From NCBI GenBank assembly GCA_017546245.1, contig JAFYXI010000037.1, positions 1 through 46,710 on the forward strand: a stretch of 46,710 bases of DNA, written 5' to 3'. A model generated the notes under the pieces. It ran no database searches and was not told where the DNA came from. It worked only from the letters and a program-made list of their open reading frames with translations. Both the position numbers and the translations under genes were made by a program. Below, one piece after another: positions 4,282-26,610 of this stretch. How positions within the stretch are numbered: the stretch's first letter is position 1; each line of letters opens with the position of its first letter. Origin of the DNA: Clostridia bacterium. GTDB taxonomy: Bacteria; Bacillota; Clostridia; UBA1381; UBA9506.

Positions 4282-4304
4282 ATTGTCGCACTCCTTATTA
4301 AAAA

Positions 4305-4331
4305 TTAAAGGGACGCTAAACGCCCCTTTAA
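4305..4331 (-). terminator. terminator of the 12-gene surface-glycan operon
   Basis: The stem TTAAAGGGGCG/CGTCCCTTTAA with a short TTTAG loop is followed on the minus strand by TTTTTAA. It lies a few bases after the stop codon of the last SLH protein and marks the end of the long operon. Confidence 0.85.
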
Positions 4332-4336
4332 TATTC

Positions 4337-6454
4337 TTACGCAAGACAACGTAAAATCATAGTTACTGCTTCTGCTCTTGTAATATTTCCGGCAGGTTTA
4401 AACGTGCCGTCGGGATATCCGTTAATCATACCCGATGCTGCTGCATCTAAAACTGCATCTTTCATATTTGCAGAAATTGAATCTATATCAGTAAAGCTGA
4501 TATTTCGGGAAGTCTGACCTATTTTAAAGGCTCTTACCATTATGCGTGCAGTTTCTTCACGCGAAAGAATTGACGGGCCATCATCATACGGCTCTATCCA
4601 GCCTAATTCTTTAGCTTTACTTATTGCGCCTGCATACCACTCGGCACCTTGCGTTTCGTTGGTTTCGATATACATGGCACGCAAAAGCATAGTGATAAAT
4701 TCTGCCCTTGATATATTTCTGTCAGGCAACAATCCTGCATCTGTTCCGAATAAAATACCACGCGATACTGCTGCATCAAGCGATTTTTGTGCCCAATGTG
4801 CAGGTGCAGACGATGTAGCATTGTTTTTGTTTGTGATTTTTTCAGACTCGGTTGTTTTATCAGTTTCCGGTAGAGTTTCAGTCTCCTGCTTCAGTTCTTT
4901 ATGAATAGCCGGATTGTACTTGGTGTAGCTGTGTTCTACCGTGTATCCGGTAGGAACATAATCCTCGGCTAAAATAGGTTCAGGAGGCGGTTCTATTCCG
5001 TCTACACGAAGTTCCTTGGGATATGTTCCCGCAGGTGAAATTACCCAATAACCGTATTCTGCCAATTTTTCTTTCGGGGTATATATATAACTGCCCTCTG
5101 GGAATACAATAACCTGATTTCCTATCTGGAATGTGGGTTTGTTTTTACCGATTAAGAAGTTCTCAAGGCTTATGCCGGGTGTGTATAAGTCAGGAGTGAT
5201 ACGCCATACGTTTCTGCCACCTGCGCTCATACCTGACAGCACATATCTGTCATCCCAGTCTATAGCCTTTGTTAATAAGGTTTTTTTATCCTCAAAGCCC
5301 GCAACTTCATCAAGCTGACTAAACAACTTTGACAATAGTATTTCATCATCACCCTGTTTGGTTGAACCGTGATTATAAATTAAGAACGGGTCAGGATTCA
5401 TAAGTCCCAAATGGAAAATAAACTCCTGATAATAATGAGTAATGTTAAAATTACCATATCCTCCGCTCGACCAGTTTTTAAGACCAACCCACGGCATTAT
5501 TTTTCCATCAGTTGACAAAACTGCTGAATTTACGTTTACCATTGTCATAACCAAATTGTTATAGGATGTTTTTTTGAACTGATTAAACGGATAACCGTCA
5601 GGAGCATTTCCTGGATAGGTTAAGTGTATTAGCATGCCATAGCACACCGGCGAAGAATGTGTACCTGTGGTTTTTCCAGGTCCGCCAAGATATGTTTTAT
5701 GTGCTGCACCGGTTATAATTTTGGTTTCGCCGTTATATGCTGATGAACCGTAGTTAGCTAACTTTATATCCGGATAAAACTGTGAAATAGGCTCGTAGGC
5801 TGCACGATTGTGATACATTGCAACTCTGTCACCATCTACCACTCTGTTCCATATGTTATAAGCATATTTATCCTTTGTGTAATTAACAACATAATATAAT
5901 TCGCCTTGTGACTCATCACCAAATCTGAAATTACGTTTTTCAAGTTCCGGTCTTATTTCGGCTGCATATTTAGGATGGCTGACAATAGCCTCTGCAACAC
6001 CTTTCTGTTTCATTGACCAGTTTGACATATCTGCCTCTAAGTCGTCGATAACATAATCAAGCTGTGCACCCTCGTTTTTTAATGCCTCGAAAAACTTTAA
6101 GTGTAATTCTCTTACTCTTTCAGTACCGGCATCCCATACAACAAGATTTTCGCGGTCTTTTGTTATTTCGGTCATTACATTGCGTATATCAATACCGCGC
6201 TTGCCCTCAGGCATTGTTTTTAAATAACGTGCCGCATTTTTTGCGGTGGGAACAGGACCTTGCGACGTTAAATCGCTATATAAAAGGTCGTAAGGCTTAT
6301 ATATATTATGCTCTTCTGTGCTTGGTTTAAAAAGATAGCCCCAAAAGCTGCCTTTTTTGCCCTCGTTAGCGCAGGCGCTGCCAACAGGCAGCGCCATAGC
6401 TAAAACTATAACCACACACAACAATTTTGATAACAAACTATTTTTATTTTTCAT
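4337..6454 (-). CDS. SLH-anchored candidate glycoside hydrolase (paralogue C)
   Basis: A 705-residue exported protein with a signal peptide (about 1-29), a large unnamed catalytic-looking domain (about 35-485), a charged Thr/Glu-rich linker (about 500-548) and three SLH repeats (about 550-705) that would bind the cell-wall secondary polymer. The core domain is shared with the genes at 6457-8892 and 13227-15347. Conserved landmarks are D137-D138-x-E140 at the end of a hydrophobic strand (LDYVIDD), MPWV at 320-323, NPDPFLIYNHGS at 353-364, RITPD at 418-422 and FPEGS at 451-455. Strand-ending acidic residues suggest a TIM-barrel hydrolase, but I do not recognise the family. The ATG is 2 bases after the stop of the preceding paralogue, whose end contains its GGGAG site, so translation is coupled. 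Confidence 0.75.
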   Translation of the reverse strand: MKNKNSLLSKLLCVVIVLAMALPVGSACANEGKKGSFWGYLFKPSTEEHNIYKPYDLLYSDLTSQGPVPTAKNAARYLKTMPEGKRGIDIRNVMTEITKDRENLVVWDAGTERVRELHLKFFEALKNEGAQLDYVIDDLEADMSNWSMKQKGVAEAIVSHPKYAAEIRPELEKRNFRFGDESQGELYYVVNYTKDKYAYNIWNRVVDGDRVAMYHNRAAYEPISQFYPDIKLANYGSSAYNGETKIITGAAHKTYLGGPGKTTGTHSSPVCYGMLIHLTYPGNAPDGYPFNQFKKTSYNNLVMTMVNVNSAVLSTDGKIMPWVGLKNWSSGGYGNFNITHYYQEFIFHLGLMNPDPFLIYNHGSTKQGDDEILLSKLFSQLDEVAGFEDKKTLLTKAIDWDDRYVLSGMSAGGRNVWRITPDLYTPGISLENFLIGKNKPTFQIGNQVIVFPEGSYIYTPKEKLAEYGYWVISPAGTYPKELRVDGIEPPPEPILAEDYVPTGYTVEHSYTKYNPAIHKELKQETETLPETDKTTESEKITNKNNATSSAPAHWAQKSLDAAVSRGILFGTDAGLLPDRNISRAEFITMLLRAMYIETNETQGAEWYAGAISKAKELGWIEPYDDGPSILSREETARIMVRAFKIGQTSRNISFTDIDSISANMKDAVLDAAASGMINGYPDGTFKPAGNITRAEAVTMILRCLA

Positions 6455-6456
6455 AA

Positions 6457-8892
6457 TTATTTCGCTCCCAATAAATCAGGAATAACGTGCATTAAACGTT
6501 CGAATATAACAGCCATTTCTGCTCTTGTGCAGATATTATTCGGACGGAAGTTTCCATCCGGATAACCTTCTAACAAACCAAGTGCAGTAACTGCATTAAT
6601 GTTGTTCTGTGCATCGCTGTTTAAGTAATATAAATCGTTAAACTGTGAGCTTGCTCCCTGAGTTTCGATGCTCATTGCTTTTACTAAAATATTGCACATT
6701 TTAGCACGGGTTAAGTTAGTTTCGGGTGCTAAAAGCGAACCGCTTTCAGGAGCTATCCAACCGCCTGCAGCTGCTGTTGATACGGTGTCAGCATACCATT
6801 TGTCAGCCGAAACATCGCTGTAGCCGCCTGCGTATTCTGTTGTTTTAACACCTAACACACGCATAAGCATTGCCAAAAACTCTGCTTTGTTAATCATTCT
6901 GTCAGGCTCCATACCAATGTCTGTACCCTGCATAACTCCGAATGCTAACATATTTGCAAAGCTGTTTTCTGCCCAATGACCTTTTGCATCTTGAGGCATT
7001 GTGCCACTAAAGAGCGGAATTTTGCCACCCTTGCCCACTATCGGATTTAACACGAGCTTTGTGGTAGCTACAGGTGCCTCAGGTGCCTGAGTCTGCTGAT
7101 TTTCAGAAGAATCTTCTTTATTTTCTGTATCTGCAGGTTTTGACGGTGTAGTTGTTGTCGCATCTGCTTCGATAATCGGTTTTAAATAGTTGTTCGGATC
7201 AGGCATGGTCTCACTTGATTCCATATCAGCACCTGCCGGTAAATGGTCAGGTGTGTCAACAGGCTCGTCAGGTATCGGATAGTCAAGTGATCTGTATTCG
7301 TTAGGCCATGTTGCATCAGGAGTGATTACCCAATAACCGTACTGCGAAACCTTATCTTCAGGCTCGTAAATAAAGCTACCTTCAGGGAATTCAATGCACT
7401 GGTTACCAATTCTGAAGTTTACACCGCCAATGGTGTTTACTAAGAAGTTTTCCATACTAACACCAGGTGTGTAAAGGTCAGGAGTGATTCTCCATACGCC
7501 TTTTCCGTTAGCTTTCATACCTGAAAGGAAGTAACGCTGATCCCATGAAGGTACTGCGTTAAGTGACGGAGTGATGTTTTCTCTGTCTTCAAAGCCTACT
7601 ACTTCGCCCAGTTCTTTAAACGCATGTCTTAAAAGCTCCATATCATCACCGGGGTCAGTAGAACCGTGGTTGTAAATTAAGAATGGGTCTGGGTTAAACA
7701 TACCGAAGTGTAAAACCATTTCTGTATAATAGTCGGTTTTATAGTGGTTGTGGTATGCAGACTGTCCGAGACCTACCCATGTTCTTGCGCCAACCCATGG
7801 CATAAAGCCTCTGTCTGATTCTGCACAACCGATGATTGTATTATTATTTTTAATCATTTCGATTAAAAGGTGGTTAAACGGGGTATCTGCCATTTTAGCG
7901 TACGGATACTCTTTCGGAGGATTATCCGCAATCATACCAAAGTTACCATAGTTAACGGTTGATGCTGATGTTCCTACAGGTTCGCCTCTTAAACCAGGAG
8001 CCGAACGTGTACCCTGATAGTTATATACAGGAATCTTACCCGTTCCTACATCACCCTTACCGTAGTTAGAGAACTTGATATCAGGATAATATTGTGCAAT
8101 TACTTCATAAACAACCTTGTTATATGTTCTCCAGAATACGCTTCCGTTAAATACATCATTAAAGATACTGAAGGCAGTATCCGCACCCTCGGGGCGTTCT
8201 TCTTCATAGAAACGACTACGTCTTGGCTCCTGCGCACCTGGGTAAATATTAATATACTCTAAGTCATATTCTTCGCCGAACACATATCCCGCTGCTTCAA
8301 GTTCAGGACGAATTGCCTTATATTCAGGAGTCTGTTCAACCTTTTTTAATTCTTCTTTAATCCATTCTTCGTACAGATGACCTTTGTTAGCAATGGTATC
8401 CTGTACAGATTCTGAACTGCTTCTGAAATGTGCAATGGCTGTATTTTCGATACCGTAACACAAAATACCGCTTTCGTTATCGTCTATTACATAGTCAAGT
8501 TCTGCGCCTGCTGCTTTCATTGCTGAAAACAATGCATCTGTGTCTTTTCTTAACTGCTCAATAGATTCATCAGACAAGAAGAAATAGTTTTGCATATTAC
8601 TTGATAATCCGTTGGTAAAGCCCGTAATATCAAGCACTTTTCTGCCCTTTGGCTTTTCTTTAAGCTTTGTTGCAAGCTCTTTAGCCAAAGGCACAGCACC
8701 TTTATCTCTTAAATTGTCGATTCTTACATTGATAGAGCGTACTAAAGTGTCGTCAGATACACTATCTGAATACAAAACGCCCCAGAAGGTATCTGTATTA
8801 CCCTTTTCAAATTTTTCTGCCGCAAGTGCCGTACACGGTATAAACATAAATACCATGAGCATTGCTAAAAGTCCTGTTAAAATCTTTTTCAC
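6457..8892 (-). CDS. SLH-anchored candidate glycoside hydrolase (paralogue B)
   Basis: An 811-residue exported protein organised like its downstream neighbour: signal peptide ending near A25, unnamed core (about 35-560), Pro/Thr/Glu-rich linker, and three SLH repeats in the last 170 residues, including GHWAENSFANMLAFGVMQG and NGYP-like EGYPDGNFRP. The core carries D137-D138-x-E140, the same positions as the 705-residue paralogue, MPWV at 364-367 and NPDPFLIYNHGS at 400-411. An insertion around residues 150-235 makes it longer. The start is a GTG preceded by GGAGG 8 bases upstream. It is predicted cell-surface and to act on a glycan, by analogy only. The gene follows the 932-residue SLH protein by 14 bases. 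Confidence 0.75.
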   Translation of the reverse strand: MKKILTGLLAMLMVFMFIPCTALAAEKFEKGNTDTFWGVLYSDSVSDDTLVRSINVRIDNLRDKGAVPLAKELATKLKEKPKGRKVLDITGFTNGLSSNMQNYFFLSDESIEQLRKDTDALFSAMKAAGAELDYVIDDNESGILCYGIENTAIAHFRSSSESVQDTIANKGHLYEEWIKEELKKVEQTPEYKAIRPELEAAGYVFGEEYDLEYINIYPGAQEPRRSRFYEEERPEGADTAFSIFNDVFNGSVFWRTYNKVVYEVIAQYYPDIKFSNYGKGDVGTGKIPVYNYQGTRSAPGLRGEPVGTSASTVNYGNFGMIADNPPKEYPYAKMADTPFNHLLIEMIKNNNTIIGCAESDRGFMPWVGARTWVGLGQSAYHNHYKTDYYTEMVLHFGMFNPDPFLIYNHGSTDPGDDMELLRHAFKELGEVVGFEDRENITPSLNAVPSWDQRYFLSGMKANGKGVWRITPDLYTPGVSMENFLVNTIGGVNFRIGNQCIEFPEGSFIYEPEDKVSQYGYWVITPDATWPNEYRSLDYPIPDEPVDTPDHLPAGADMESSETMPDPNNYLKPIIEADATTTTPSKPADTENKEDSSENQQTQAPEAPVATTKLVLNPIVGKGGKIPLFSGTMPQDAKGHWAENSFANMLAFGVMQGTDIGMEPDRMINKAEFLAMLMRVLGVKTTEYAGGYSDVSADKWYADTVSTAAAGGWIAPESGSLLAPETNLTRAKMCNILVKAMSIETQGASSQFNDLYYLNSDAQNNINAVTALGLLEGYPDGNFRPNNICTRAEMAVIFERLMHVIPDLLGAK

Positions 8893-8906
8893 TTTTTGCC
8901 CCTCCT

Positions 8907-11705
8907 TTATTCATGCTTATACAAGAATCCGCTCTGACACGACATCCATCTTGCAGAAAGTACTAATGTTACATAATCGGTTGCCGAGTCTTCATAACCA
9001 ATTAAGTCTGATGCTACGGCATTTCGAACACTGTATTTTCCGTTCTTTTCTACAAGACAGGTAAGCGACGGATTTACAGATGTAAATGTATATTCCGGAT
9101 TTGCAGGGTCACCCATTGCACCGTATATATAACCGTCTTTAGCTTTTATAAGATTTATGACATATAATCTGTGTACCTGGTCACGAGAGAAATATTTGTA
9201 ATCATCATTCGTATTCAAAGAACCACCGGCACCAAGTGAGCCTACTCCCATTAATTTTCTGTTGGTGCTGTCGTAGGCAATTTCGATTGCCTTAATATAA
9301 CCCAATACGTCAGCAGAAATGTTAACCAGGTCACCCGGAACTACCTTATAGGTATCACCTGTTGCTACACCCTTACTGTCATAAATTTTAAGGTTATTAA
9401 GGTCAATTTTCGGATCGTTTATATAATAATTCATTTTATTTGTCTGAAGAACTGTTACCTCTTCATCTTCGTGCATAGCCTTTTTAATAGAAAGTACCAT
9501 CTGTATACTGAAGCCACTTTGTACGTGTGGCTTAGGCTCAGCATCTGCAATAAGAATTACAAAAGCAGCAACTAAGTCTTCTGACTTTTCTTTATATGCC
9601 ATAAATTTGAAGTTAGACGAAGGTCTTGACGCACCGATAAACATTTTTTCCTGCGCGGTGTTCATTGTGCCGTCAGCAAAGAACGGTGCCTGAACATATT
9701 CTGTATTAGCATTAGAACCTAATGATTTTGACTTCTGAGGGTCATAGTTGGCATATGCATCACCATCAGCTTCATTATGTGAATACAAAACGTTACGATA
9801 AGCTGCATAACCCTGGCTTGTATTTGATTTGTCTACTCCACCCATAACGTAGAAGAAATCTTTACCGTCGTCGTAGTTACCTGCCTGCATAATATAGGTG
9901 ATTTCGTTGTTTTCGTTAACGCCGAGTTTTACAGGCTGGGCAACGAATTTTGTGCCTTTCTCTCCGGTTCTGCCGTTACGTAAAAATGCATCTTCAACCT
10001 TGCTTTTATCTTCTTTTTTACCATTTAACTCAACTTTTTCTGCACAGTAATAGGTATTAAATTCACCAAGACTTCTTGCAAAGAATTTAATTTTAACATC
10101 TCCGCTTAAGTCTTTAGCCTGCTCAACACCAGTTACAATCGCATAGAAAGGTGCTGCTGCACCACCTGCAGCTTCATCACCATAAAAAGCGATTTCGCCG
10201 TTAAAGTTAAGATAGAAGGTATAAGTATAATCAAATTTAGCTTCGTCAATTTTTTTAGCCGCAATAAGCTGCTGTAAATACTTAGAAAGCTTGTATGTTT
10301 TTTCGCCGATTGTCCACTCGTTTGTTTCGGTATCTTTCTGAGAAATTTCGCCGCTTACTGTATCATTGCTTACATAAACATCCATTTTTGTGTCTGCGCC
10401 GCTTTCGGCAACTGAAATTACAGTGTTTGTAGCAATATCGTCAAATTTTGCTGCTGTACCGTTAGCTTTATAGTATCTGATGTTATTTCCATACTTTAAA
10501 AAGTCATAACGTTCCATAGCATCCTGACCGAGTACAATCATATCGTCAGATAAAACAGCTTTAACAACAACCTCTGTAAATGAACGGATAATAACTACCT
10601 CTGCATCTCTGCCTTCAAAATTATTAATGATAGTTACTTCACCTATTTCAGGCATCATCTTATCTTTTTTATAAAGACCGGTATACTCTTCTCCGTTATA
10701 GATTACATAAGGGTCATTGAGTGTGATGGTTCTTGTTTTGTCTCCATCCTCGTAATAATAGGTCATATCTTTATAATCTTCAAGAATGTCTGCATTAAGA
10801 ACCATAACGTCATCTTCGTCAAGCACGTTTATTGAAATAATTTCTTTAGTGCTTACAGATGTATCGTTATACCAATAAGCTTCTACATGATGACCTAAGA
10901 GTGATGCTCTGTCGTAGTCGTAAAGGAAGAATTTTGTGTCATCAATTAAAATACAGCCTTCTGTTAAATCAGCCTTAGAGCCGCTGCCAAAAATTACATT
11001 ATCAGCACCGGTTACTGTTCCGGTTGTTCTTACAACATTGTGGAATTTGTAAAGCGCATTGATTTCGTCGAGCTGAACAAATTTTGTTACCTCACCAAAT
11101 GATGTCTGATCCATTACTTTAGCGTGAAGAGCATTATAAATCATTTTATATGCTTCGCCGCGAGTAAGCTGACCGTCGTTATCAACGCCGTCAAATAAAT
11201 CTAATGTGCCTGCAAAACGTGCATATGTGTCGTTTTTAAGCGCAAGCTCGCCATAACCCATACTCATTAACAATGCTTTTGCAGCATCTTCAGCAGTAAT
11301 TGCCCATGCAGGATAAAAATATCCATCATCAACCGGAGCCATATAGCCTGCCGCAACAGCTGTGTATATGTACGGAGCTTCTAAATAATCTGCAAATACG
11401 TCGTTTAACTTAACTGCGTCTTTGCTTACAATTGTGTCAAACATGCCTGTAAAATGACAAGCTAAAACCGCAAATTCTGCTCTTGTCATCTGAGCCGACA
11501 TATCGGTATCTGCTTCATCGTCAACAATGTCTAAATCATAAAGCAACTCTTTTGCAGTTTCAAGCTGTGGGTCTATAACCTGCTCTGCTATCTGCTCTGT
11601 AGCTTGCTCCGCCTGTGCTTCTTCAGCAAATGCCGGAATGAATGATGTAAACATCATTACCGCCGCTAAAAGCAGAACACTTAATTTGCTTATTGCCTTT
11701 TTCAA
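8907..11705 (-). CDS. N-terminal SLH surface protein, function unknown
   Basis: A 932-residue exported protein with a signal peptide (cleavage near AFAEE, residue 28). Degenerate SLH repeats occupy roughly residues 45-200 (AQMTRAEFAVLACHFTG, TAEDAAKALLMSMGYGELA, QLTRGEAYKMIYNALHAK), followed by about 730 residues of predominantly beta-type sequence with no motif I recognise. SLH modules at the N terminus rather than the C terminus set it apart from the enzyme-like proteins in this operon; this layout is common in structural S-layer-associated proteins. The start codon is TTG with a strong GGAGGAG site upstream; no ATG fits as well, so a rare start is used. It is probably a surface scaffold or glycan-binding component, inferred from its place in the operon. 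Confidence 0.75.
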   Translation of the reverse strand: MKKAISKLSVLLLAAVMMFTSFIPAFAEEAQAEQATEQIAEQVIDPQLETAKELLYDLDIVDDEADTDMSAQMTRAEFAVLACHFTGMFDTIVSKDAVKLNDVFADYLEAPYIYTAVAAGYMAPVDDGYFYPAWAITAEDAAKALLMSMGYGELALKNDTYARFAGTLDLFDGVDNDGQLTRGEAYKMIYNALHAKVMDQTSFGEVTKFVQLDEINALYKFHNVVRTTGTVTGADNVIFGSGSKADLTEGCILIDDTKFFLYDYDRASLLGHHVEAYWYNDTSVSTKEIISINVLDEDDVMVLNADILEDYKDMTYYYEDGDKTRTITLNDPYVIYNGEEYTGLYKKDKMMPEIGEVTIINNFEGRDAEVVIIRSFTEVVVKAVLSDDMIVLGQDAMERYDFLKYGNNIRYYKANGTAAKFDDIATNTVISVAESGADTKMDVYVSNDTVSGEISQKDTETNEWTIGEKTYKLSKYLQQLIAAKKIDEAKFDYTYTFYLNFNGEIAFYGDEAAGGAAAPFYAIVTGVEQAKDLSGDVKIKFFARSLGEFNTYYCAEKVELNGKKEDKSKVEDAFLRNGRTGEKGTKFVAQPVKLGVNENNEITYIMQAGNYDDGKDFFYVMGGVDKSNTSQGYAAYRNVLYSHNEADGDAYANYDPQKSKSLGSNANTEYVQAPFFADGTMNTAQEKMFIGASRPSSNFKFMAYKEKSEDLVAAFVILIADAEPKPHVQSGFSIQMVLSIKKAMHEDEEVTVLQTNKMNYYINDPKIDLNNLKIYDSKGVATGDTYKVVPGDLVNISADVLGYIKAIEIAYDSTNRKLMGVGSLGAGGSLNTNDDYKYFSRDQVHRLYVINLIKAKDGYIYGAMGDPANPEYTFTSVNPSLTCLVEKNGKYSVRNAVASDLIGYEDSATDYVTLVLSARWMSCQSGFLYKHE

Positions 11706-11739
11706 AATTATCTCCTCCTTGAATTATCTGTAACAGCTA

Positions 11740-13173
11740 TTACTGCTGTGTATATATAACAACTGAACCTATCGGTGCAATGTTTTTCCAGTTATCTAAA
11801 AGCGATACTCTTACGATGCTGTCAGCATCTTCAAATGCAACTGTGCCGATTGTAATATTTTCTGTTGCACCGGCTGCTATAACACCGTATACGCTTTTAA
11901 TTTCAACGCATTCGTTGTCACCGTTCCATGATGTTGCCAAAAGCAGATATTCTCTTGCTTTAGCACTTGGTTTAGAAAGTGTAATGCTTGCTGTAACACT
12001 ACCCTCTGCCGCTGCAAAATCAACTGTTGAAAGTGATGCCGCAAGCGGGTCAACCGGTGTCGCAAACGGAATTTCAACTACTTCTGCCAAACCGAAGTCA
12101 TCTGATGTTGAGCAGATTTTGCTGGTTAATGTTAAGTTATAATTTTCGCCGTAAGGTAAGTTGTCGAAAGTAATGGTCATAACACCATCAGTATAGTCAA
12201 TTTCGTATTTATCAGTTACATCCAAGTTGGGGTTTTCTGCTGTAAAAATAATATTTTCTTTTGTAATTGTATCTGTGTTAAGGTCTGCTGAGAATGTAAA
12301 GGTTGCAGAGCTAAAGTCATCTGCCAATACCTGTGATGTGCAGGTAAGCTCTTCAATATCTACTACATATTCTTTAAACTCATCAACTAAAACTTTTGTA
12401 CCTTCTGCATAACCCGCTGCAGTAATCACAGTTGACCACCAAACCTTAGCCCATCTGCCTTTACCTGCCTGCACATACTGCCAGTCAGATCTACCAATAA
12501 CATTACCTGCTTCGTCGTATATAGTTGCATCCATATAGGTTTTTGACTCTGATTCAGCTGCACGAGCATCCATATATGCCTCGATTGTGTACCACTCGTC
12601 TGCATTCATAGTAACTCCTTCGTTAAGGAAGTTTACATATGTTGCTTTAGCTTTATCATAATACTGTGCCTGACCCGCTGTAAGTCTTACACCAAAACAC
12701 ATAAGCGCTCTGGATGTGTCAGGACCTACTGTTGTCTGGTCAGTTTGAGCAAATACATAAACTGATCCACTTGCTTCAACAGAAGGCAATTTAACCTTTG
12801 CTGTGAATTTTTTAAAGGTTTCGTTTGCAGTTGCGGTAGGACCGCTAACAATTCCAAGCTTATGCTCATAATAGTTTACACCGCCTGAAACTATATTTTT
12901 GGTATCGGCAGCAAGCTCAAAATATTTGTTGCCATTATCGTCTTTTCTTACCACAACACCATTAGCTGTCTTAAAATTATTGCCTACCGGTTTAACACTT
13001 CCGCCATAACCCGGCTCTACTTCGGGTTTGTTTGCAAGAGCTACATCTTCCGGTAAGTCTTCTTCAGAGACAGTACATACGGTAAGAATCTCTTCGCTTG
13101 CCGCAAATGACGGTAAAATGCCAATGCTTAAAACCATCAAAAATGCCATTAACAAACTAACTGTTTTTTTCAT
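11740..13173 (-). CDS. secreted beta-sandwich protein, paralogue of the 814-residue protein
   Basis: A 477-residue exported protein with a signal peptide (cleavage near SFAAS, residue 25). Residues about 60-270 form a beta-rich, LamG/jelly-roll-like module that aligns by eye with the N-terminal part of the protein at 15377-17821: both have VxxKDDxGNxYFEL, then KLPSVE/SLPSVE, FGV-L near a tyrosine cluster, and VDEFK/IDEFK before the module ends. The middle part (about 275-375) looks like a bacterial Ig-type domain. The last 90 residues match a C-terminal module found in other proteins of this operon. It has no SLH, transmembrane segment or enzyme motif. A role in binding glycan is plausible but unproven. 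GGAG lies 10 bases before the ATG. Confidence 0.7.
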   Translation of the reverse strand: MKKTVSLLMAFLMVLSIGILPSFAASEEILTVCTVSEEDLPEDVALANKPEVEPGYGGSVKPVGNNFKTANGVVVRKDDNGNKYFELAADTKNIVSGGVNYYEHKLGIVSGPTATANETFKKFTAKVKLPSVEASGSVYVFAQTDQTTVGPDTSRALMCFGVRLTAGQAQYYDKAKATYVNFLNEGVTMNADEWYTIEAYMDARAAESESKTYMDATIYDEAGNVIGRSDWQYVQAGKGRWAKVWWSTVITAAGYAEGTKVLVDEFKEYVVDIEELTCTSQVLADDFSSATFTFSADLNTDTITKENIIFTAENPNLDVTDKYEIDYTDGVMTITFDNLPYGENYNLTLTSKICSTSDDFGLAEVVEIPFATPVDPLAASLSTVDFAAAEGSVTASITLSKPSAKAREYLLLATSWNGDNECVEIKSVYGVIAAGATENITIGTVAFEDADSIVRVSLLDNWKNIAPIGSVVIYTQQ

Positions 13174-13226
13174 ATTTTTACATCTCCGTTCTGTTTTTAT
13201 ATATAGGTTTAATTTATATTAATTTT

Positions 13227-15347: not shown

Positions 15348-15376
15348 AAATTCTCCTTTTATTAACTAAAAATATA

Positions 15377-17821: not shown

Positions 17822-17894
17822 AAACATTGCCTCCTAAAAATTTTGTAAAAATATATAAATTATTGTAAAACTAATTAAATAAAGAAATTTTTCC

Positions 17895-18019
17895 GTCGGC
17901 ACATAACACCTTGGTTTTGCGCTTTCGGTTTGCTTTTACATTCGAATGGAGCAAGCCCCATCCCCACACCGCCGACATTTGCAAACCCTTACACCGTAGG
18001 GCAAGGGCTTGCTCTTGCC
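17895..18019. repeat. GC-rich palindromic intergenic element inside the operon
   Basis: Between two operon genes lies an ORF-free, GC-richer patch with several inverted repeats: GTCGGC (17895-17900) with GCCGAC (17971-17976), AGCAAGCCC (17950-17958) with GGGCTTGCT (18005-18013), and GGCAAG with CTTGCC (18000-18019). No T-run follows on either strand, so it does not look like a classical terminator. Its composition differs from the AT-rich spacer on either side, suggesting an inserted repeat element. Confidence 0.55.
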
Positions 18020-18064
18020 GTATTTTTTTCTTCTTATTTAATATATAACGATTACAATTTATAT

Positions 18065-19840
18065 TTAAGAAATAACCTTTGTTACTTCGTAAAGCAGTTT
18101 TGCAGCCTGCGCTCTTGTTGTTGTGCCGGTTGCACCAAACTCTGTGTCGCTTAATCCGTTAATTAAGCCTGCGCTGTAAAGCTTTTCTACTGCTTCTTTT
18201 GCGTAGTCGCTTATGTTATCGGCAAAGTTGCTTTCTGCTTTAACAGCTTTAAGCTCTGCACCTTTTACCTTAAGTGCGTTTGCACACATTACTGCCATAT
18301 CCTGACGGCTGATGTTACGTCCTACGCCAAAGCCATCGCCCATACCCGATACAATGCCGTTATTGTATGCTGTGTATACATAAGGTGCAAACCATTCATT
18401 GCCCGATACGTCAGCAAAATCTGCTGCAGCTCCGCTTGTTTCAAAGCCAAGTGCTGCTACTAACATTTTAACAAATTCTTCACGGGTTACTGCTGCATCA
18501 GGAGCAAAGCTTCCGTCAGGTCTGCCGCTGATTATGCCTTTTTCGTGCAGAACTGTTATTGCCTCATGCGCCCATACTACAGTTGCAATGTCGTTAAATA
18601 CATAGCTCGATGCGTTCGGTACATCAGGAATAACCGGTGCTACATCGCTGAATGAATAGCTAACCTTACTGCCTGATGAAGACGAACCGCCGCCACTGCC
18701 GCCGGAGCCGCCTGACGAACCGCCGTTACCATCGGGGATTACTGCATTTAATTCTTCTGCAAAATCTTCTAATGATTCAAACGGCTGTGCATCAATAACG
18801 TCACGGCAAATTTCAAGAGGTTTGTCAGCGTCGCTGTATGCTTCAAAATCAACACCGGCATCTTTAAGTTCATCTTCAAACTTTGTGATTACGGTATCTA
18901 ATACGCCAACAGCCTTAGTATAAGACAATGTTGTTAATAAAAGAATGTCGCCAAGTTCATCTGCTGCAGCATCTACACTTTTACCCGAAAGGTCAGCCTT
19001 AGCAACAGCTTTATAAAATTCAGCTTTAACATCATCATCTAAAACATCTGCATCTGCATAAATTTCTTTATATGCTTTCTGCTCTGTAAATTTAAGCGCA
19101 GCAGCATTCGCCTCTAAATATGCGCCTGCATCGGTTGCTGCGTTTAAGCATTCAACCAGCACAGCATCTTCAAAGATTTTTGTAAAGGCTGCCGTATTTT
19201 TTACAGCACTTGCATTTAATTCTTTGCTTATGCACTCAAAAATTTTGGTTTTAGTTGCCGCATCTGCTTTATCGAATGATTCATACATTTTGTTTTCGTC
19301 TAAACCTAAAATCTGATATGGTTTATATACATTTTCGTTAGCAGGCTTTTCAAATATCGCTGCAACTGTATCTGCAGTAATATTCTCTGCTAATGCTGTA
19401 ACAATATTTTCTGAATCATTATCTGTAATAAACTTAAAAGTAGTTTCAACGGTTTTATACAGTCCTGATGCATTTACACGTACTGTATATTTACCTTTAT
19501 CGCTATTTGGTTTAAAGGTAAATTCAACATTACCACTTGCATCTGCAACACCGTGATACAAACAAACGATGTTGCTGTTAACCGCATCAGAATTTGTAAT
19601 TCCGTACTTTCCGTCTTCTGTTTTAAGATTTTCTAAGCTGCCCGAAGGATCAATAACCTGAACGACTACATCTTTACCTGCAAACTCTTCTCCGCACGCA
19701 ACAGTAAGAGTTACATCAGTTTCGGTAACAACGGTCTGTATTGCCACCTCTGCCGAAACAACAGGAGCCATAGCCAAACTTAATGCCAAAACAGCAGACA
19801 GAATTTTGCAGTAAAGTTTGCTTTTAAATAATTTTTTCAT
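18065..19840 (-). CDS. SLH-anchored surface protein with Ig-like N terminus
   Basis: A 591-residue exported protein with a signal peptide (cleavage near PVVSAE, about residue 30) and an Ig/FN3-like beta module (about 35-140; TLTVACGEEFAGKDVVVQV). A long, mainly helical, Ala/Asp-rich middle (about 140-365) is followed by a Gly/Ser linker and three SLH repeats in the last 190 residues (GIISGRPDGSFAPDAAVTREEF, ...GRNISRQDMAVMCANAL, ...TTTRAQAAKLLYEV). There is no enzyme motif. Its ATG overlaps the stop codon of the solute-binding lipoprotein by one base (TAATG), tying its translation to the transporter. It may present or bind substrate at the cell surface; this is inferred from position. Confidence 0.8.
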   Translation of the reverse strand: MKKLFKSKLYCKILSAVLALSLAMAPVVSAEVAIQTVVTETDVTLTVACGEEFAGKDVVVQVIDPSGSLENLKTEDGKYGITNSDAVNSNIVCLYHGVADASGNVEFTFKPNSDKGKYTVRVNASGLYKTVETTFKFITDNDSENIVTALAENITADTVAAIFEKPANENVYKPYQILGLDENKMYESFDKADAATKTKIFECISKELNASAVKNTAAFTKIFEDAVLVECLNAATDAGAYLEANAAALKFTEQKAYKEIYADADVLDDDVKAEFYKAVAKADLSGKSVDAAADELGDILLLTTLSYTKAVGVLDTVITKFEDELKDAGVDFEAYSDADKPLEICRDVIDAQPFESLEDFAEELNAVIPDGNGGSSGGSGGSGGGSSSSGSKVSYSFSDVAPVIPDVPNASSYVFNDIATVVWAHEAITVLHEKGIISGRPDGSFAPDAAVTREEFVKMLVAALGFETSGAAADFADVSGNEWFAPYVYTAYNNGIVSGMGDGFGVGRNISRQDMAVMCANALKVKGAELKAVKAESNFADNISDYAKEAVEKLYSAGLINGLSDTEFGATGTTTRAQAAKLLYEVTKVIS

Positions 19841-21306
19841 TATTTATTTTCTCTCCATTCATCATACTGTTTCTGAACATCTGCAATAAATCTGCTCATT
19901 CCTGCGCTTTCGAATTTTTCTAAAGCTTTAGGAAGCATTTCTTCAGGGTCAACCGCACCCGAAATAATTGCGTTCATATATTCCTGATATACGTTGTTGA
20001 ATGCGCTCAGCTCGTTCATCATGCCGTCAGCGTTATATACGAATCCGAGTGCAGGAGATTTGATTGCATTTTCGTCAAATTCTAAGTATTTGTCATAGAT
20101 GTCTTCAGGTGTGCCTTCAATCATTCTCATAAGATATTTGTTACCCTGAGGCGATACATATGTTTCAAAGCCAGTGTCTGCTTTCTTTTCGCAGCCTTCA
20201 GGAAGCTTGAACTGATTTTCGCCAACTGCAATCCAGTGTTTACCTTCGATACCTAATGATACAAGGTTTCTTAAATATTTATCTGTGTTGATTAAGTTAA
20301 TTAACTGCATAGCTTTTTCAGGATGCTCTGAAGTTGACGGAATCGCCATCATACAGGTTGTTACGTTGTATGTACCCATCTTAGGCTTAATTAAATGAAC
20401 AACGCCGTACTGATATTTGCTTGTCTGATTTTTCTGGTCAACCAGATACGGAAGCTCCTGCTCGATTGATGAGAATGTTCCGCCGCCTGCACCTGTGTTT
20501 TCGGTTGCAATATCTCTGCGGATAAATCCTTTTTTATAGAAATCGTGCATAACTTTGTAGTATTCTTTTGCCTGCTCTGTTGCATACGGGTTTACGATTG
20601 TGTTCGGGTCACCCTCTAACTCGATTGAAGCAAAGCCTTCTGCACCGGCAATATCGTCATACTGTAAAAGTTCAAACGGTGTTAAAGACAGTGGAAAGTT
20701 GAGCGGATATGTAGTTGGCTCGTTATCTCTGATTACTTCGTAGATAGGCGCTAAATCTTTGAACTCTTTAACGCTGTCCATATCAAGATTGTATTTGTCT
20801 GCCATATCCTTGTTATAGTATACGGTATGCTCAACCGCATAATCCTTAAAGAACGGCAATCCATAGAGTACGCCGTTTAATTTTGCGGCATTTAAAGCAT
20901 ATTCAGGTGTAATTTCTTTAATTTCTTTACCGTATTCTTCCAACAAATCATCCATAGGAGCCAAGGAACCGTTTTTAACATAGTTGGTGTAACCTGAACC
21001 GCCTGTGTATAAAATGTCGAATTTTTCGCCCGATGCCATAATCAAACGAATTTTTTCGTTGTATTCTGCACCGATAATAGAAATGTTTTTAACGGTTGCG
21101 CCAATTTTAGGCTCGATGTACTTATTAACCTCATCATAAACCATCTGATGGTCTCTGGTTGTTGCTGAACGGTTGTACCATACAAGCTCAGGCACTTCGC
21201 CGTTCGAGGTTTCGCTGCTCTTCGGTCCGCAGGCTGTAAGCGAAATTATGCTTACTACTGCCAGTACCGCGCATAAGATTCTTCTGAATTTTTTTGTTTC
21301 TTTCAT
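19840..21306 (-). CDS. ABC transporter solute-binding lipoprotein (CUT1 sugar type)
   Basis: A 488-residue lipoprotein. The lipobox LTAC ends at C26, the lipidated residue, after a short basic and hydrophobic signal. The rest has the family 1 extracellular solute-binding pattern (VWYNRSATT start, NGSLAPMDDLLEEYGKEI, NGVLYGLPFFKD). The C terminus EEMLPKALEKFESAGMSRFI fits the DUF3502 tail found in LplA/YtcQ-like binding proteins for oligosaccharides. It should capture a sugar outside the membrane and pass it to the two permeases encoded just upstream. It lies 69 bases after the second permease. A GGAG site precedes the ATG by 9 bases. The ligand cannot be deduced; oligosaccharide or uronide-type glycans are common in this subfamily. 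Confidence 0.9.
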   Translation of the reverse strand: MKETKKFRRILCAVLAVVSIISLTACGPKSSETSNGEVPELVWYNRSATTRDHQMVYDEVNKYIEPKIGATVKNISIIGAEYNEKIRLIMASGEKFDILYTGGSGYTNYVKNGSLAPMDDLLEEYGKEIKEITPEYALNAAKLNGVLYGLPFFKDYAVEHTVYYNKDMADKYNLDMDSVKEFKDLAPIYEVIRDNEPTTYPLNFPLSLTPFELLQYDDIAGAEGFASIELEGDPNTIVNPYATEQAKEYYKVMHDFYKKGFIRRDIATENTGAGGGTFSSIEQELPYLVDQKNQTSKYQYGVVHLIKPKMGTYNVTTCMMAIPSTSEHPEKAMQLINLINTDKYLRNLVSLGIEGKHWIAVGENQFKLPEGCEKKADTGFETYVSPQGNKYLMRMIEGTPEDIYDKYLEFDENAIKSPALGFVYNADGMMNELSAFNNVYQEYMNAIISGAVDPEEMLPKALEKFESAGMSRFIADVQKQYDEWRENK

Positions 21307-21375
21307 TTTTTATTTCTCCTCTCTTTTAATTGTATACTTTTTAATATATTAGCAATCCTTCAGTTCCGTAAAGCA

Positions 21376-22323: not shown

Positions 22324-22341
22324 TTCTGTTTTCTCCTCCTT

Positions 22342-23259
22342 TTAGAACAATGCGTTATCAGGCTCTATCTTCTTAACTACTGCGTTAGCACCTATTACCA
22401 TTAAAAAGCCTACGATTGCCTGATAGAAACCAACTGCACCCGTTACGCCCATATTACCTGAGCCGCCCATCATACCGTTATACACATATGTATCAATGGT
22501 CTGGGTTACCGAATAAAGAGCACCCGAGTTTTTAGGGAACAGCTGGAACATACCAAAGTCGGAGTGCATTATACCGCCGACACTCATTATGAACATTATC
22601 GTTACTATCGGCTTTAACAGCGGTAATGTTATATGAAATACCGACTGTAACCACGTTGCTCCGTCTATTCGTGCTGCCTCGTAAAGCTCTGAGTCGAAGC
22701 CACGTATATTCGAGTAATAGATTATACTTGAATAACCTACACCCTTCCATATACTTACTATCGGTAGTATAAACGGCCAGTACTTTGGCTCTGAATACCA
22801 GTTTATCGGTTCGCCGCCAAACTTGGTTATTATCTGGTTTGCTATACCCTTATCTGAGCTTAATATTGCATAACCAAAGAAGGTTATTACTACCCACGAT
22901 AAAAAGTGAGGAAATATTGCTACTGTCTGATTGATTCGGTTTAACTTACTGCTGCCCAATGCGTCGTATAATATTGCAAACGATATTGAGAATATCAAAC
23001 CGATTGCTATAAATGCCAGGTTGTACAACACTGTGTTTCTTGTCATTATCCATGCGTCGTCCGTAGTGAACAAAAACTCAAAGTTTTTAAACCCTACCCA
23101 GCTACTGCCAAAGATTCCTTTGTTGAACCGGAAATCTTTAAATGCTATTACGATTCCGAACATTGGTATATAGCAAAAGGCTATCAGCCATGCTATACAC
23201 GGCGTTGCCAGTGCTAAAAGCGGCAAATTGTTCTTTACATCCTTAAAAAATTTCATCAC
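22342..23259 (-). CDS. carbohydrate ABC transporter permease (LplB/YteP-like)
   Basis: A 305-residue MalF-like CUT1 permease of the LplB/YteP subfamily with six predicted membrane segments. The EAA loop is LYEAARIDGATWLQSVFHITLPLLKP. It begins inside the end of the histidine kinase gene: GTG at 23259 and ATG at 23256 are adjacent, and GGAG is 6 or 9 bases upstream, so either can start translation. The overlap with the kinase suggests translational coupling of sensing and transport. It pairs with the LplC-like permease that follows. Confidence 0.92.
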   Translation of the reverse strand: MMKFFKDVKNNLPLLALATPCIAWLIAFCYIPMFGIVIAFKDFRFNKGIFGSSWVGFKNFEFLFTTDDAWIMTRNTVLYNLAFIAIGLIFSISFAILYDALGSSKLNRINQTVAIFPHFLSWVVITFFGYAILSSDKGIANQIITKFGGEPINWYSEPKYWPFILPIVSIWKGVGYSSIIYYSNIRGFDSELYEAARIDGATWLQSVFHITLPLLKPIVTIMFIMSVGGIMHSDFGMFQLFPKNSGALYSVTQTIDTYVYNGMMGGSGNMGVTGAVGFYQAIVGFLMVIGANAVVKKIEPDNALF

Positions 23260-25042
23260 TTTTCTCTCCTTTATTAAATGGTATGGCTATGACTGCCGTC
23301 AGGCCACCGCATTCATTTGACTGATAATATAACCCTGCCTGCTCGCCGTATTTAATCTGCAAGCGGTTGTGAATGTTCATAATTCCTATCTTTTCGGTTT
23401 GGAATACCGTTTTGTCACCTGCAATATATTTATTTAACAGCTCTGCATCATAACCTTTGCCGTTATCTTCGGTATATATTTTAATAAAATCATTTTCTTG
23501 TTTAACCGAGATTTTAATTGCAAGCGATTTGTTTTCACGGCTTAATCCGTGTACAACTGCATTTTCAACCAAAGGCTGAATCATGAACTTTTGAATTTTT
23601 ACGTTTTCTAACCCTTCTTCGATATATATATCTAAGTTAAAGCTTCTTTTATGGCATTTTTCCTGAAGCTTTATATAATTTTCAATAAATAAAAGCTCGT
23701 TATTAATTTCTATCATCATTTCAGAAGTCTTTGCACTATATCTGAAACTATCGGCTAAAGCCTCTGCCATATCAGCTATATCGTCATCACCTTTTCTTAA
23801 TGCCATCCACGTCATAGAATCTAAAGCGTTGTAAAGGTAATGCGGATTTATCTGTGACTGAAGCATTTTAAACTCTGCCTCTTTTTTTTGCTCTCCTAAG
23901 CGCTGTGACACCTTTAAAAGATGCTTGATTCTTAACAGCATATCGTTAAATGCATTGTAAAGGCTATCTACTTCATATATATGCGAGGTCTTTATCTTAT
24001 AATTCAATTCAGACGATTCATCAGCCGCAGTCATAAAATTACTTAACTGCTTAATAGGCTTTGCGACTATACCCGAAAGGAACACCGCCATAACCAGCGC
24101 TAAAAGCAAGATAAGTACAACTGTCCAGAATATTTGATGGCTTATTTCTTCTATAGTTATACACGCCTCGTCTTTAGGTATTGCCGCAACCAGCGTCATA
24201 TCAAAATCAAGGTCATGCTTGCAAGCGAAATATTCTTCGCCGTCAATCTGCACAGAAGACATTGCAGCCATTGGCATGTTTGGATTTCTGTAATATGTAG
24301 ATGCAAACCCGATAACTTCTGCACTTATAGCCTCGTTACCGGTGCATATTACCTCGCCCTTGTTATTTACTATTACAGTTTCTAAAAAACTTTTATTATC
24401 TATATGTCTGTGATTTCTTAAAATTCCTTCAAAATTGATTGCTACAAGGCTTACACCTAAAACCTCGCCGCTATATCCCAAATGATTGTATATAATCTGA
24501 GCAAAAAAAACGCAGTTCGGCACATCGCTGTGTTCAAAAAAATACATCTGGCGTTTACTTTTTAACAGTTCTCTGTACCATTCAAACTTTTCCAGACCCT
24601 CGTTTGTTACAACACCCGTGTACCGCTCAACCGAATTTGCAATGTAAGGTTGTAAATGCTTTGCCATAGGCTGCGACGAATCTATAAACAAAATACACGA
24701 ATTGTTAAAATCAATACTGCTTGTCTGCGGTCTTATCTCGCCTGCGTACTGAACCAGTTTATTTATACTGTTTACCTTTTCTATAATGTCCTTCGGTTCT
24801 GATTTAACAAGCTCAACAAACTCTCTGTCAAAGCTTAAGGCATCGTTCGAATTTTGAACTTTCATTATCGAATCGGTTATTTCTTCTTCACAGCCTTCGA
24901 CAACATTTTCAATATCGTCCATAACCATCGACAACAGCCTGTCGTTAAACCGGTCGTTAATGCTGTATATAAGCAAAAAGCTGACAAACAAAACAAATGA
25001 TACCAAAACCGCAAGCACCGATAGTCTTATACTAACTTTCAT
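23243..25042 (-). CDS. sensor histidine kinase (YesM-like)
   Basis: A membrane sensor of about 599 residues. There is a transmembrane segment near residues 8-28, a large extracellular region (about 30-300) of dCache type, a second transmembrane segment (about 305-325), a HAMP-like region, then the His_kinase domain with phospho-acceptor context QINPHYLYNALDSM. The ATP-binding domain has N-box QPLVENAVVHG and G-box DNGKGYD. This is the YesM/LytS-type architecture linked to extracellular glycan sensing in Gram-positives. I preferred the ATG at 25042, 10 bases after GGGAGG, over the ATG at 25051 that nearly abuts it. Its start overlaps the response regulator stop, so the pair is coupled. Confidence 0.92.
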   Translation of the reverse strand: MKVSIRLSVLAVLVSFVLFVSFLLIYSINDRFNDRLLSMVMDDIENVVEGCEEEITDSIMKVQNSNDALSFDREFVELVKSEPKDIIEKVNSINKLVQYAGEIRPQTSSIDFNNSCILFIDSSQPMAKHLQPYIANSVERYTGVVTNEGLEKFEWYRELLKSKRQMYFFEHSDVPNCVFFAQIIYNHLGYSGEVLGVSLVAINFEGILRNHRHIDNKSFLETVIVNNKGEVICTGNEAISAEVIGFASTYYRNPNMPMAAMSSVQIDGEEYFACKHDLDFDMTLVAAIPKDEACITIEEISHQIFWTVVLILLLALVMAVFLSGIVAKPIKQLSNFMTAADESSELNYKIKTSHIYEVDSLYNAFNDMLLRIKHLLKVSQRLGEQKKEAEFKMLQSQINPHYLYNALDSMTWMALRKGDDDIADMAEALADSFRYSAKTSEMMIEINNELLFIENYIKLQEKCHKRSFNLDIYIEEGLENVKIQKFMIQPLVENAVVHGLSRENKSLAIKISVKQENDFIKIYTEDNGKGYDAELLNKYIAGDKTVFQTEKIGIMNIHNRLQIKYGEQAGLYYQSNECGGLTAVIAIPFNKGEKSDEIF

Positions 25043-26099
25043 TTGCCTCATTCCTCCCTGCTCTCATGCTTGTCCTGTATTCTTTGGGAGTCATTCCGGT
25101 TCGCTTTTTAAAAAGTTTTACAAAATAGTTCGAATCTGTGTATCCCAACAGCTCTGCTACCCGGCGTATTGAATGCGAGCTGTTGGATATTATATCTTTT
25201 GCTCTTTCGATTTTTATTTGAATTATATAATCAGACAGCGAGCCTTCTCCTGCATTTTTAAATAATCTTGAAAGATGGTCAACAGATAAATTAAAGTGGC
25301 TGGCAACACTAAACGACGACAGGTTTGAACCAAAAACATTTTCATCGATATACCGCTTAGCCAGGGTTACTATATCTCCGCCGTTTTTACCCTGTTCAAG
25401 CTCTAAAACAGTTATGCACTCATTAAATTTTTCTGTTAAAAACTCTTTTGCAGACTTTGCATCTGATATTTTATAAAATGCCTGCATTTGCATTTCAAGC
25501 TCTTCTGTTTCTTTAAAAGCAGATTTAAAATATTTTAAAAGCAGTTCCAGCAATATAGAATAATATTCTTTAAATTTTTCTACACCAATCTGTCCGAATC
25601 TGTCTTCTATATCAAGTATTTTTTTAATTGCCTGCATATCACAATTGCGCAATGCTTTTTTAACTTCATCGGCAAGCTCTGATCCGCGCAAATAAACGCG
25701 CCATTTAATATTATTTTCTTTTTCTTGTGCGACTGCCTTTATTGTTGCGGATAATAATTCGAGCTTTGCACAATTTATAGGTTTTAAAATATATTCTCTT
25801 ATATCGTACTTAAGAGCCTCGCGCGCATAGTCAAACTCTGCATGCGCACTAAGCAAAACTATTTCTGTGTCGAACGCCTTTTCTCTAATATATTTTGCTA
25901 CCGAAAGGCCATCCATATAGGGCATGCAAATATCTAAAATAACTAAATCAATGCCGTGATATTGCTCTAAAAACTGTACGACCTGCTCGCCATCTTCAGC
26001 AACCGCAACGACGTTAGCTCCTAAAGCCTGCCATTCTATCATTTTCATAAGTCCCGAACGAGTGTTTATATCGTCATCGGCAATGATAACATTTATCAT
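25032..26099 (-). CDS. response regulator with AraC-type DNA-binding domain (YesN-like)
   Basis: A 355-residue regulator. The receiver domain (about 1-120) has the acidic pocket D8-D9-D10, phospho-acceptor D56 in LVILDICMP, and a conserved K in YILKPI. A helical middle segment is followed by a C-terminal AraC double HTH (about 255-350) with FNLSVDHLSRLFKNAGEGSLSDYI and the signature LGYTDSNYFVKLFKKRTGMTPKEYR. It is the partner of the kinase encoded next and the first gene of the long operon, so it probably activates its own operon. The start at 26099 follows AAAGGAGGG by the right distance; a longer frame to 26132 covers that site and is rejected. Confidence 0.93.
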   Translation of the reverse strand: MINVIIADDDINTRSGLMKMIEWQALGANVVAVAEDGEQVVQFLEQYHGIDLVILDICMPYMDGLSVAKYIREKAFDTEIVLLSAHAEFDYAREALKYDIREYILKPINCAKLELLSATIKAVAQEKENNIKWRVYLRGSELADEVKKALRNCDMQAIKKILDIEDRFGQIGVEKFKEYYSILLELLLKYFKSAFKETEELEMQMQAFYKISDAKSAKEFLTEKFNECITVLELEQGKNGGDIVTLAKRYIDENVFGSNLSSFSVASHFNLSVDHLSRLFKNAGEGSLSDYIIQIKIERAKDIISNSSHSIRRVAELLGYTDSNYFVKLFKKRTGMTPKEYRTSMRAGRNEANES

Positions 26100-26379
26100 C
26101 TGTTGCCCTCCTTTCGTTAAAAATAGCATCACATCTTAATTTTTGGTATGAAAAAACTGACAAAACCGTTATTTTTGTCAAAAAATATATGTTTAATACT
26201 ATTATTATAGTTTTCTTTAGTTTAATTTTAACAAATTTTTTAAGATTGTTAAAGTGGATTTTTCCGACATTTTACTGTTTTTTTCCGATACTTGTAACCT
26301 TTTTGTAAACATTTTTATTTTTTCTTAAATTTATTTATTAATTTTATACAAAAATGCCTGTATTTAACATATAAAAAAC
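26100..26379 (-). promoter_or_regulatory. regulatory region upstream of the 12-gene operon
   Basis: This ORF-free, very AT-rich stretch holds the likely operon promoter. A perfect -10 box TATAAT (26204-26209, minus strand) has a TTGTTA or TTAAAA -35 candidate 19 or 16 bases upstream. Downstream of it is a perfect 8-base inverted repeat TGACAAAA-7-TTTTGTCA at 26158-26180, which looks like a protein-binding site. Beyond that I see no RNA element or gene. Confidence 0.5.
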
Positions 26380-26413
26380 AAGCAGCACACTATATAAAAT
26401 AAGTGTGCTGCTT
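26380..26413 (-). terminator. terminator after the small DUF6472-like gene
   Basis: An 11-bp stem AAGCAGCACAC/GTGTGCTGCTT (26380-26390 with 26403-26413) is followed on the minus strand by GTTTTTTAT. It sits just after the stop codon of the 63-residue gene and isolates it from the operon downstream. Confidence 0.85.
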
Positions 26414-26418
26414 GCTGC

Positions 26419-26610
26419 TTAATTTTGCTTTTTTACCATTTTATATTCATCATAAAAACGATAATACGGACAGGCATTTCGTCCGCCGGAATAAAAGAGC
26501 GATATATCGTCTTCGTCAAAGCTGACAGAGCAGCCATAATCATCGGTTTCTCCGTCATAATCATAATAAGCGCAGGTTTCGCATTGTGTATTTTCTGAAT
26601 TTTGTGACAT
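26419..26610 (-). CDS. small four-cysteine protein (DUF6472-like)
   Basis: A 63-residue acidic, cytosolic protein with four cysteines, C10-x2-C13, C27 and C47, in a layout that suggests one zinc or metal site. The ending CPYYRFYDEYKMVKKQN and the opening CETCAYYDYD match my memory of the small Clostridia family annotated DUF6472, whose function is unknown. GGAGG lies 5-6 bases upstream of the ATG and a clear terminator follows, so this is a real monocistronic gene. It lies divergent from the DeoR-type regulator. Confidence 0.8.
   Translation of the reverse strand: MSQNSENTQCETCAYYDYDGETDDYGCSVSFDEDDISLFYSGGRNACPYYRFYDEYKMVKKQN

Follow-up and report, generated by a model that had tools for sequence, protein, structure and literature searches.

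Gram-positive polysaccharide-utilization loci (gpPULs) are defined by the presence, in one locus, of a polysaccharide-degrading enzyme, a carbohydrate transport system and a transcriptional regulator (PMC5320581). In Paenibacillus sp. JDR-2, the xylan, beta-glucan and starch systems combine hydrolases anchored by surface-layer homology (SLH) modules with regulated ATP-binding cassette (ABC) uptake (PMC4765114). Here, a run of 12 genes is described from a contig of a Clostridia bacterium (JAFYXI010000037.1, C10 in our numbering; 46,710 nucleotides, analyzed as a whole and hereafter called the window). The assembly of 2.03 Mb is 97% complete, and the closest named relative among the collections searched is a goat-caecum 'Clostridia bacterium' metagenome-assembled genome. 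The genes are carried by the minus strand, from 25032-26132 to 4337-6454, in the order RR-HK-P1-P2-SBP-E1-E2-E3-E4-E5-E6-E7, that is, a response regulator, a sensor kinase, two permeases, a solute-binding lipoprotein and seven exported proteins labeled E1 to E7 in operon order (table 1). The locus is probably a gpPUL, the surface part of which is anchored to the wall by SLH modules.

Comparison with Described Systems

Judged by the gpPUL definition, the locus has a regulator (the YesN-type RR with its kinase) and a transporter, the family of which suggests a carbohydrate ligand; for the enzyme there are candidates only, namely E3, E6 and E7, which lie outside the recognized families. The substrate-specific gpPULs of Roseburia and Eubacterium rectale (PMC5320581) similarly combine degrading genes with an ABC transporter and a regulator (including histidine kinase and AraC-type response regulator). 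In contrast, the locus of the window has no recognized enzyme, and it encodes an extensive SLH-anchored set, in which E1 and E5 are a recurring pair; the term SLH is absent from the paper on those gpPULs. The likeness to Paenibacillus JDR-2 lies in SLH-anchored surface enzymes that are functionally coupled to regulated ABC import. There, one large SLH enzyme serves each substrate, and is distal in the case of xylan, whereas here seven exported proteins are encoded within the operon and the SLH partners look nonenzymatic. A YesMN-type two-component regulator, CUT1 permeases and a DUF3502 lipoprotein are shared with the Bacillus subtilis-type YesMN and LplABC-YtcQ systems, but here surface SLH proteins are coupled to them in cis.

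By analogy only, a recurring surface-protein pair which marks many glycan loci per genome, with differing enzymes, recalls the Sus-type loci of Bacteroidetes. Unlike those, the present locus has no TonB porin and no SusD homology, and its anchoring is to a Gram-positive wall; SusC/SusD-type Pfam domains were found in none of the twelve proteins. The kind of system is already known, and the variant consists of a dedicated, recurrent, unnamed SLH pair and a rare putative hydrolase family within one operon. No published description of either the E1-E5 pair or this operon variant was found, subscription literature lying outside the search.

Conservation of the Locus in Relatives

A sequence-only reading of the window had proposed that sensing, import and surface proteins are coupled, and this is upheld by the gene order of two genomes from another genus of the family (G084 and G088) and by the similar architecture of paralogous loci. 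In detail, the order in both genomes is RR, HK, GHx, P1, E1-type, E5-type, P2, two CTm-type genes, SBP and GHx, where GHx is the label of the family formed by E3, E6 and E7 and CTm that of a C-terminal module. Exported genes interrupt the HK/P1, P1/P2 and permease/SBP junctions, and the E1-type gene directly adjoins the E5-type gene, with a 1-base overlap. Because exported genes are interleaved with RR, HK, permease and SBP genes in this second genus, gene order gives strong evidence that the two parts would act together. The idea that the exported genes are chance neighbors of the transporter was also considered, and it is rejected as unlikely on account of the interleaving (loci L026 and L028). 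The congener G077 keeps E1-E2-E2'-E3-E4-E5-E6-E7, with an additional E7-type gene and then an esterase, a GH3, an esterase and a Gfo/Idh/MocA gene.

The same reading had held that exported orthologues occurring regularly without the transporter genes would speak against coupling. No such pattern is shown by E3, E6 and E7; the E1 and E5 families show it in part, some of their loci having no transporter nearby.

Recurrence and Genomic Company of the E1-E5 Pair

E1 and E5 each belong to a very large paralogous family that has no name. The E5 profile search showed relatives in 92/95 genomes of the order, many of which have numerous copies (135 first-look candidates at most in a single genome), and in 76/291 genomes of the class. 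Two genomes of 3.6-4.1 Mb (G055 and G057) hold more than 100 first-look E5-type candidates each, an extreme expansion of one surface-protein family.

In the window's own genome, E5-type genes are located directly beside an SLH-triplet gene on contigs C5, C6, C15, C22, C30, C64 and C70. At sampled E5-type loci, which are not fully independent, an adjacent same-strand SLH gene was present in 14 of 20 cases within the order and 15 of 20 in other families of the class, against a background of 5/277 genes. When own-genome stretches, sampled loci and control regions are pooled, 40 of the 54 E5-type genes have an SLH partner within 300 bases, mostly upstream and typically at a gap of ~20 bases, with the SLH module C-terminal in 41 of 43 partners. 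An iterated profile of the N-terminal domain of E1 (E1N) matched 26/43 E5-adjacent SLH proteins versus 15/991 others, with the provisos that the iteration was seeded by E1 in the same protein set and that a few short matches may reflect signal peptides, most matches spanning ~280-335 positions. Since E1N is enriched in E5-adjacent SLH proteins, E1 is taken as the window's own E5 partner, from which three genes now separate it. Solitary E5-type genes (~860-920 aa), with neither SLH partner nor transporter, were also seen (L127, L128, L134, L173 and L176) and are possibly an ancestral housekeeping S-layer component.

CUT1 permeases accompany six of the eight own-genome pairs (C10, C15, C22, C30, C64 and C70). 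As for the enzymes, C64 carries Pectate_lyase_2 and a GDSL esterase (Pfam), C15 a heparinase-like DUF4962 with a partial HepB match, C22 two WbsX/GH99-like domains and CBM_4_9, and C70 DUF4886 and the C-terminal domain of lacto-N-biose phosphorylase, while on C25 YesMN, a truncated SLH gene, CTm, GH95 and GH2 are found. CTm occurs near E5-type genes in 19/40 cases versus 2/17 E5-free control regions (p=0.015). The glycan substrate put forward by the sequence-only reading gains strength because paralogous loci of similar architecture hold recognized glycan-degrading enzymes; we still infer it, and the ligand is very probably a complex sugar.

Many genomes of uncultured gut Clostridia encode SLH proteins in abundance, usually with no name beyond the SLH module. 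If the E1N-SLH/E5 pair marks glycan loci, such loci could be found automatically, as is done with SusC/SusD in Bacteroidetes, and their neighbors could lead to new enzymes.

Structure of the Operon

Table 1. Genes and sequence features of the operon in the window
Feature	Coordinates	Strand	Description
Promoter-like sites upstream of RR	26204..26252	-	10/12 matches; consensus match only
RR	25032..26132	-	YesN-type response regulator; receiver (Response_reg 3.5e-24) and AraC-type HTH_18 (2.1e-18), Pfam
HK	23243..25051	-	YesM-type sensor kinase; HAMP, His_kinase PF06580, HATPase
P1	22342..23259	-	CUT1-type permease; BPD_transp_1 1e-12; L026 orthologue 59% identity
P2	21376..22323	-	CUT1-type permease; BPD_transp_1 2.5e-7; L026 orthologue 47% identity
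SBP	19840..21306	-	Solute-binding lipoprotein; DUF3502 3.8e-22, SBP_bac_1 3.8e-14
E1	18065..19840	-	Exported; N-terminal E1N domain and C-terminal SLH triplet (Pfam 3.3e-34); E5-partner family
Gap	17828..18064	-	237 bases; structured palindromic repeat element, core ~17980-18022
E2	15377..17827	-	Exported; MAM/ConA-like region, Ig-like (Big_5) region, C-terminal module CTm
E3	13227..15347	-	Exported; GHx core ~aa 126-600 and CTm; no SLH
E4	11740..13173	-	Exported; N-terminal domain common to E2, Big_5-like, CTm
E5	8907..11705	-	Exported; degenerate N-terminal SLH and ~600 conserved residues; large unnamed family
E6	6457..8892	-	Exported; GHx core and C-terminal SLH
E7	4337..6454	-	Exported; GHx core and C-terminal SLH
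Terminator-like hairpin and T-run	4304..4332	-	13 pairs; closes operon; sole strong minus-strand terminator within the run

The layout agrees with what had been read from the letters alone: all 12 genes are present in the same order and strand, the junctions are overlapping or short with one exception (in gene order -20, -17, 18, 69, -1, 237, 29, 53, 34, 14 and 2 bases), and a strong terminator is located only at the end. A purine-rich, Shine-Dalgarno-like stretch precedes nearly every gene. For RR, the ATG at 26099, preceded by GGAGGG, seems the likelier start. The YesMN/CUT1/DUF3502 set is complete in one run, with a PF06580 kinase, an AraC-type RR, two permeases and a DUF3502 lipoprotein; the sole NCBIfam match of the latter is GanS, a binder of galacto-oligosaccharides, below the cut-off. 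Past the terminator, the next gene encodes a metallo-beta-lactamase fold, and slight read-through into it is possible because its ribosome site follows the terminator directly. Just upstream of the operon (~26376-26610, minus strand), there is a small cysteine-containing ORF (~63 aa) with a strong-looking hairpin, which likely closes the preceding transcript.

The exceptional junction, between E1 and E2, had been given as a 243-base gap with a repeat element. Two in-frame ATGs could start E2, and the gap is accordingly 237 or 243 bases long; the element is real, a structured palindrome (fold z=-2.8) with a core that recurs in the genome. The whole element is not repeated in the own genome; the core is found at 4 places there and at 9 in a congener, where two copies sit at other junctions of the same operon (G077 contig C118, L025, near 3296 and 5882). 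No Rfam match was obtained, so a known RNA is not supported. The gap contains no minus-strand terminator and a weak promoter-like site (17869-17840, 9/12 matches). The presence of the element at other junctions of the congener's run gives it the look of a small dispersed repeat, inserted between genes, and not of a fixed operon boundary.

Exported Proteins and Their Anchoring

Of the four SLH proteins proposed by the sequence-only reading, E1, E6 and E7 are clear in Pfam (117, 75.4 and 85.7 bits, cut-off 20.8), while E5 has only a degenerate N-terminal copy, which falls below the cut-off (13.6 bits, E=0.07) and is recognized by a local SLH model (3e-8). CsaB, which pyruvylates the wall polymer and is required for anchoring SLH proteins to the wall, is encoded in the genome (TIGR03609, 278.8 bits with a cut-off of 213.1; G000:C28:38424-39341). 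The N-terminal domain common to E2 and E4 shows 39% identity. CTm is shared by E2, E3 and E4 and is found at 22 places in the own genome, many of them in E5-SLH-type loci. BLAST showed no internal repeats in E5, and an Ig-like domain common to the N-termini of E1 and E3, suspected by eye, was not supported on comparison.

The E3/E6/E7 Family

E3, E6 and E7 are paralogues with a common core of ~450 residues (26-41% identity); the label GHx carries no claim of glycoside hydrolase activity. The family is very rare, being present in 4 of the 95 genomes of the order and, in wider samples of 391 genomes of the class and 398 of the phylum, in the own genome only. By sequence search, relatives of the three proteins were found in none of PDB, Pfam, NCBIfam, plasmids and viral contigs, and the eight GHx members scanned at E<=10 gave no match to a Pfam glycoside hydrolase family; in PDB, no convincing sequence relative turned up. 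The earlier remark that the exported part has no nameable enzyme family is borne out by the Pfam, NCBIfam and PDB searches.

Five acidic residues are invariant over the eight members (D133, D138, E140, E344 and D355 in E7 numbering), and so are H348, R418, W322 and W470. In the AlphaFold models of the E7 core, the confident N-terminal part alternates strand and helix, with a DxE motif straight after a predicted strand. A second look at the E7 model with VIA returned mostly TIM-barrel glycoside hydrolases, the best Z being 6.7 (GH53 galactanases), below the trustworthy Z of 8. TIM-barrel hydrolases, aldolases and isomerases are among the Foldseek and VIA matches, which are taken as a hint only, with families outside the list still admissible, because the models lie below pLDDT 52. 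Clan GH-A and other TIM-barrel hydrolases (GH53, GH42, GH35 and GH14) resemble GHx in that they give the best superposition with the N-terminal beta/alpha units of the E7 model and in the placing of DxE at a predicted strand end. They differ in the Z below 8, the lack of sequence similarity and the Asn before Glu, which is not conserved in GHx: clan GH-A has a catalytic Glu pair with Asn-Glu at strand 4, and in GHx E140 and E344 are invariant, but E140 is preceded by N, L, H, F or D.

From the invariant acids and the weak TIM-barrel signal, hydrolase activity of E3, E6 and E7 is plausible. The suggestion that the locus has its own undescribed hydrolases is in this way narrowed to one candidate family, for which the evidence of catalysis is suggestive. 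Three paralogues in one operon and invariant acids make GHx a tangible candidate as a new hydrolase family, easily tested by expression.

A large cytoplasmic protein of 1141-1165 aa, with no Pfam or NCBIfam name (L034:9548-13045 and L028:1493-4918), has the GHx locus and a Gfo/Idh/MocA gene as neighbors in one genus. In the own genome it is located elsewhere, near an AraC regulator, sugar-isomerase-like and Gfo/Idh/MocA genes. Kinship with GHx, which it adjoins in L028, was examined by profile comparison and none was found, despite similar-looking short motifs.

Proposed Function and Alternative Explanations

The operon most likely serves to sense one complex glycan, capture it at the surface, cut it and import it, because the transporter and regulator are shown, SLH-ABC coupling has a precedent in JDR-2 and CsaB is encoded. 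A glycan fragment on the lipoprotein or the kinase would activate YesMN and induce the whole run. The SLH proteins would be held on the wall, for which the CsaB gene is present, and E1 and E5, as their recurrence in glycan loci suggests, may form an assembly at the surface, either to capture the polymer or to organize the wall layer near the transporter. E2 and E4 may bind the substrate via their beta-sandwich domains, and E3, E6 and E7, as one family with invariant acids and a weak TIM-barrel signal, may cut it. The DUF3502 lipoprotein and the two permeases would then import the oligosaccharides, powered, as is established for CUT1 transporters, by a shared ATPase encoded elsewhere.

Several results weigh against this interpretation. 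No protein of the locus falls in a recognized carbohydrate-active enzyme family, and YesMN/CUT1/DUF3502 systems could import nonglycans. Both AlphaFold predictions for the E7 core are of low quality (pLDDT 47 and 51.5), and no significant Foldseek match was obtained with them (none below 1e-3). CUT1 genes lie near the E5-type gene in 10/40 sampled loci versus 1/17 E5-free control regions, which is a trend only and not significant (Fisher p=0.15). A bolder proposal combines two claims: that the SusC/SusD marker has a convergent Gram-positive counterpart in the E1-E5 pair, a dedicated two-protein device anchored to the S-layer and present in up to dozens of copies per genome across much of Clostridia, each tuned to one glycan with its own transporter and enzymes, and that E3/E6/E7 are a new glycoside hydrolase family. 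The combined proposal is less likely than not.

The four wall-anchored or wall-related proteins of the operon, the presence of CsaB and the solitary E5-family genes with neither transporter nor enzymes would also suit an operon for S-layer remodeling, in which the SLH proteins and E5 are structural subunits replacing the resident layer under certain conditions, YesMN senses the trigger, E3/E6/E7 have wall polymers of the cell itself as their substrate and the use of glycans comes second. This seems unlikely, since the E1-E5 pair is recurrently linked to CUT1 transporters and to recognized exported enzymes for external glycans, both lyases and hydrolases (pectate lyase, heparinase-like), the operon includes a binding-protein transporter, and the congener has GH3, esterase and Gfo/Idh/MocA neighbors. 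Uptake of a peptide, small glycoside, polyol or other nonglycan through surface receptors, with E3/E6/E7 as binding proteins or nonhydrolytic enzymes, would account for the absence of a recognized glycan enzyme from the locus, and the ligand cannot be read from the DUF3502/YesMN annotation alone. Nevertheless, the recognizable enzymes of the paralogous loci are of glycan-active types and the only NCBIfam match of SBP, although below cut-off, is GanS, which makes this explanation quite improbable.

A separate question, compatible with either function, is whether the run consists of two operons, RR-HK-P1-P2-SBP-E1 and, past the gap, E2-E7 with a promoter of their own. The 237 bases, the structured element and the weak promoter-like site (9/12) point in that direction. 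On the other hand, the gap is devoid of a minus-strand terminator, its element looks insertional from its placement at other junctions inside the congener's run, and the other genus has exported genes set among the transport genes, so a division of the run is rather doubtful. In the favored glycan-utilization reading, the run would be induced as a whole.

Other Genes of the Window

Another SLH protein (616 aa, with an N-terminal SLH) is encoded outside the operon at 32369-34219 on the minus strand, adjoining an MgtE transporter; beyond the SLH it is not of the E5 type. At 36063-38357 on the same strand, a GHL10-like putative glycosidase (weak Pfam match) adjoins a polysaccharide-deacetylase-family protein, and this region is possibly a second small glycan module. 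On the plus strand, 26778-32313 holds genes for a DeoR regulator, an FAD oxidoreductase with a BFD domain, a pyridine-nucleotide oxidoreductase, a 118-aa protein and an MlrC/M81 protein, an arrangement suggestive of a glycerol-3-phosphate-type oxidation operon that includes an unusual MlrC gene.

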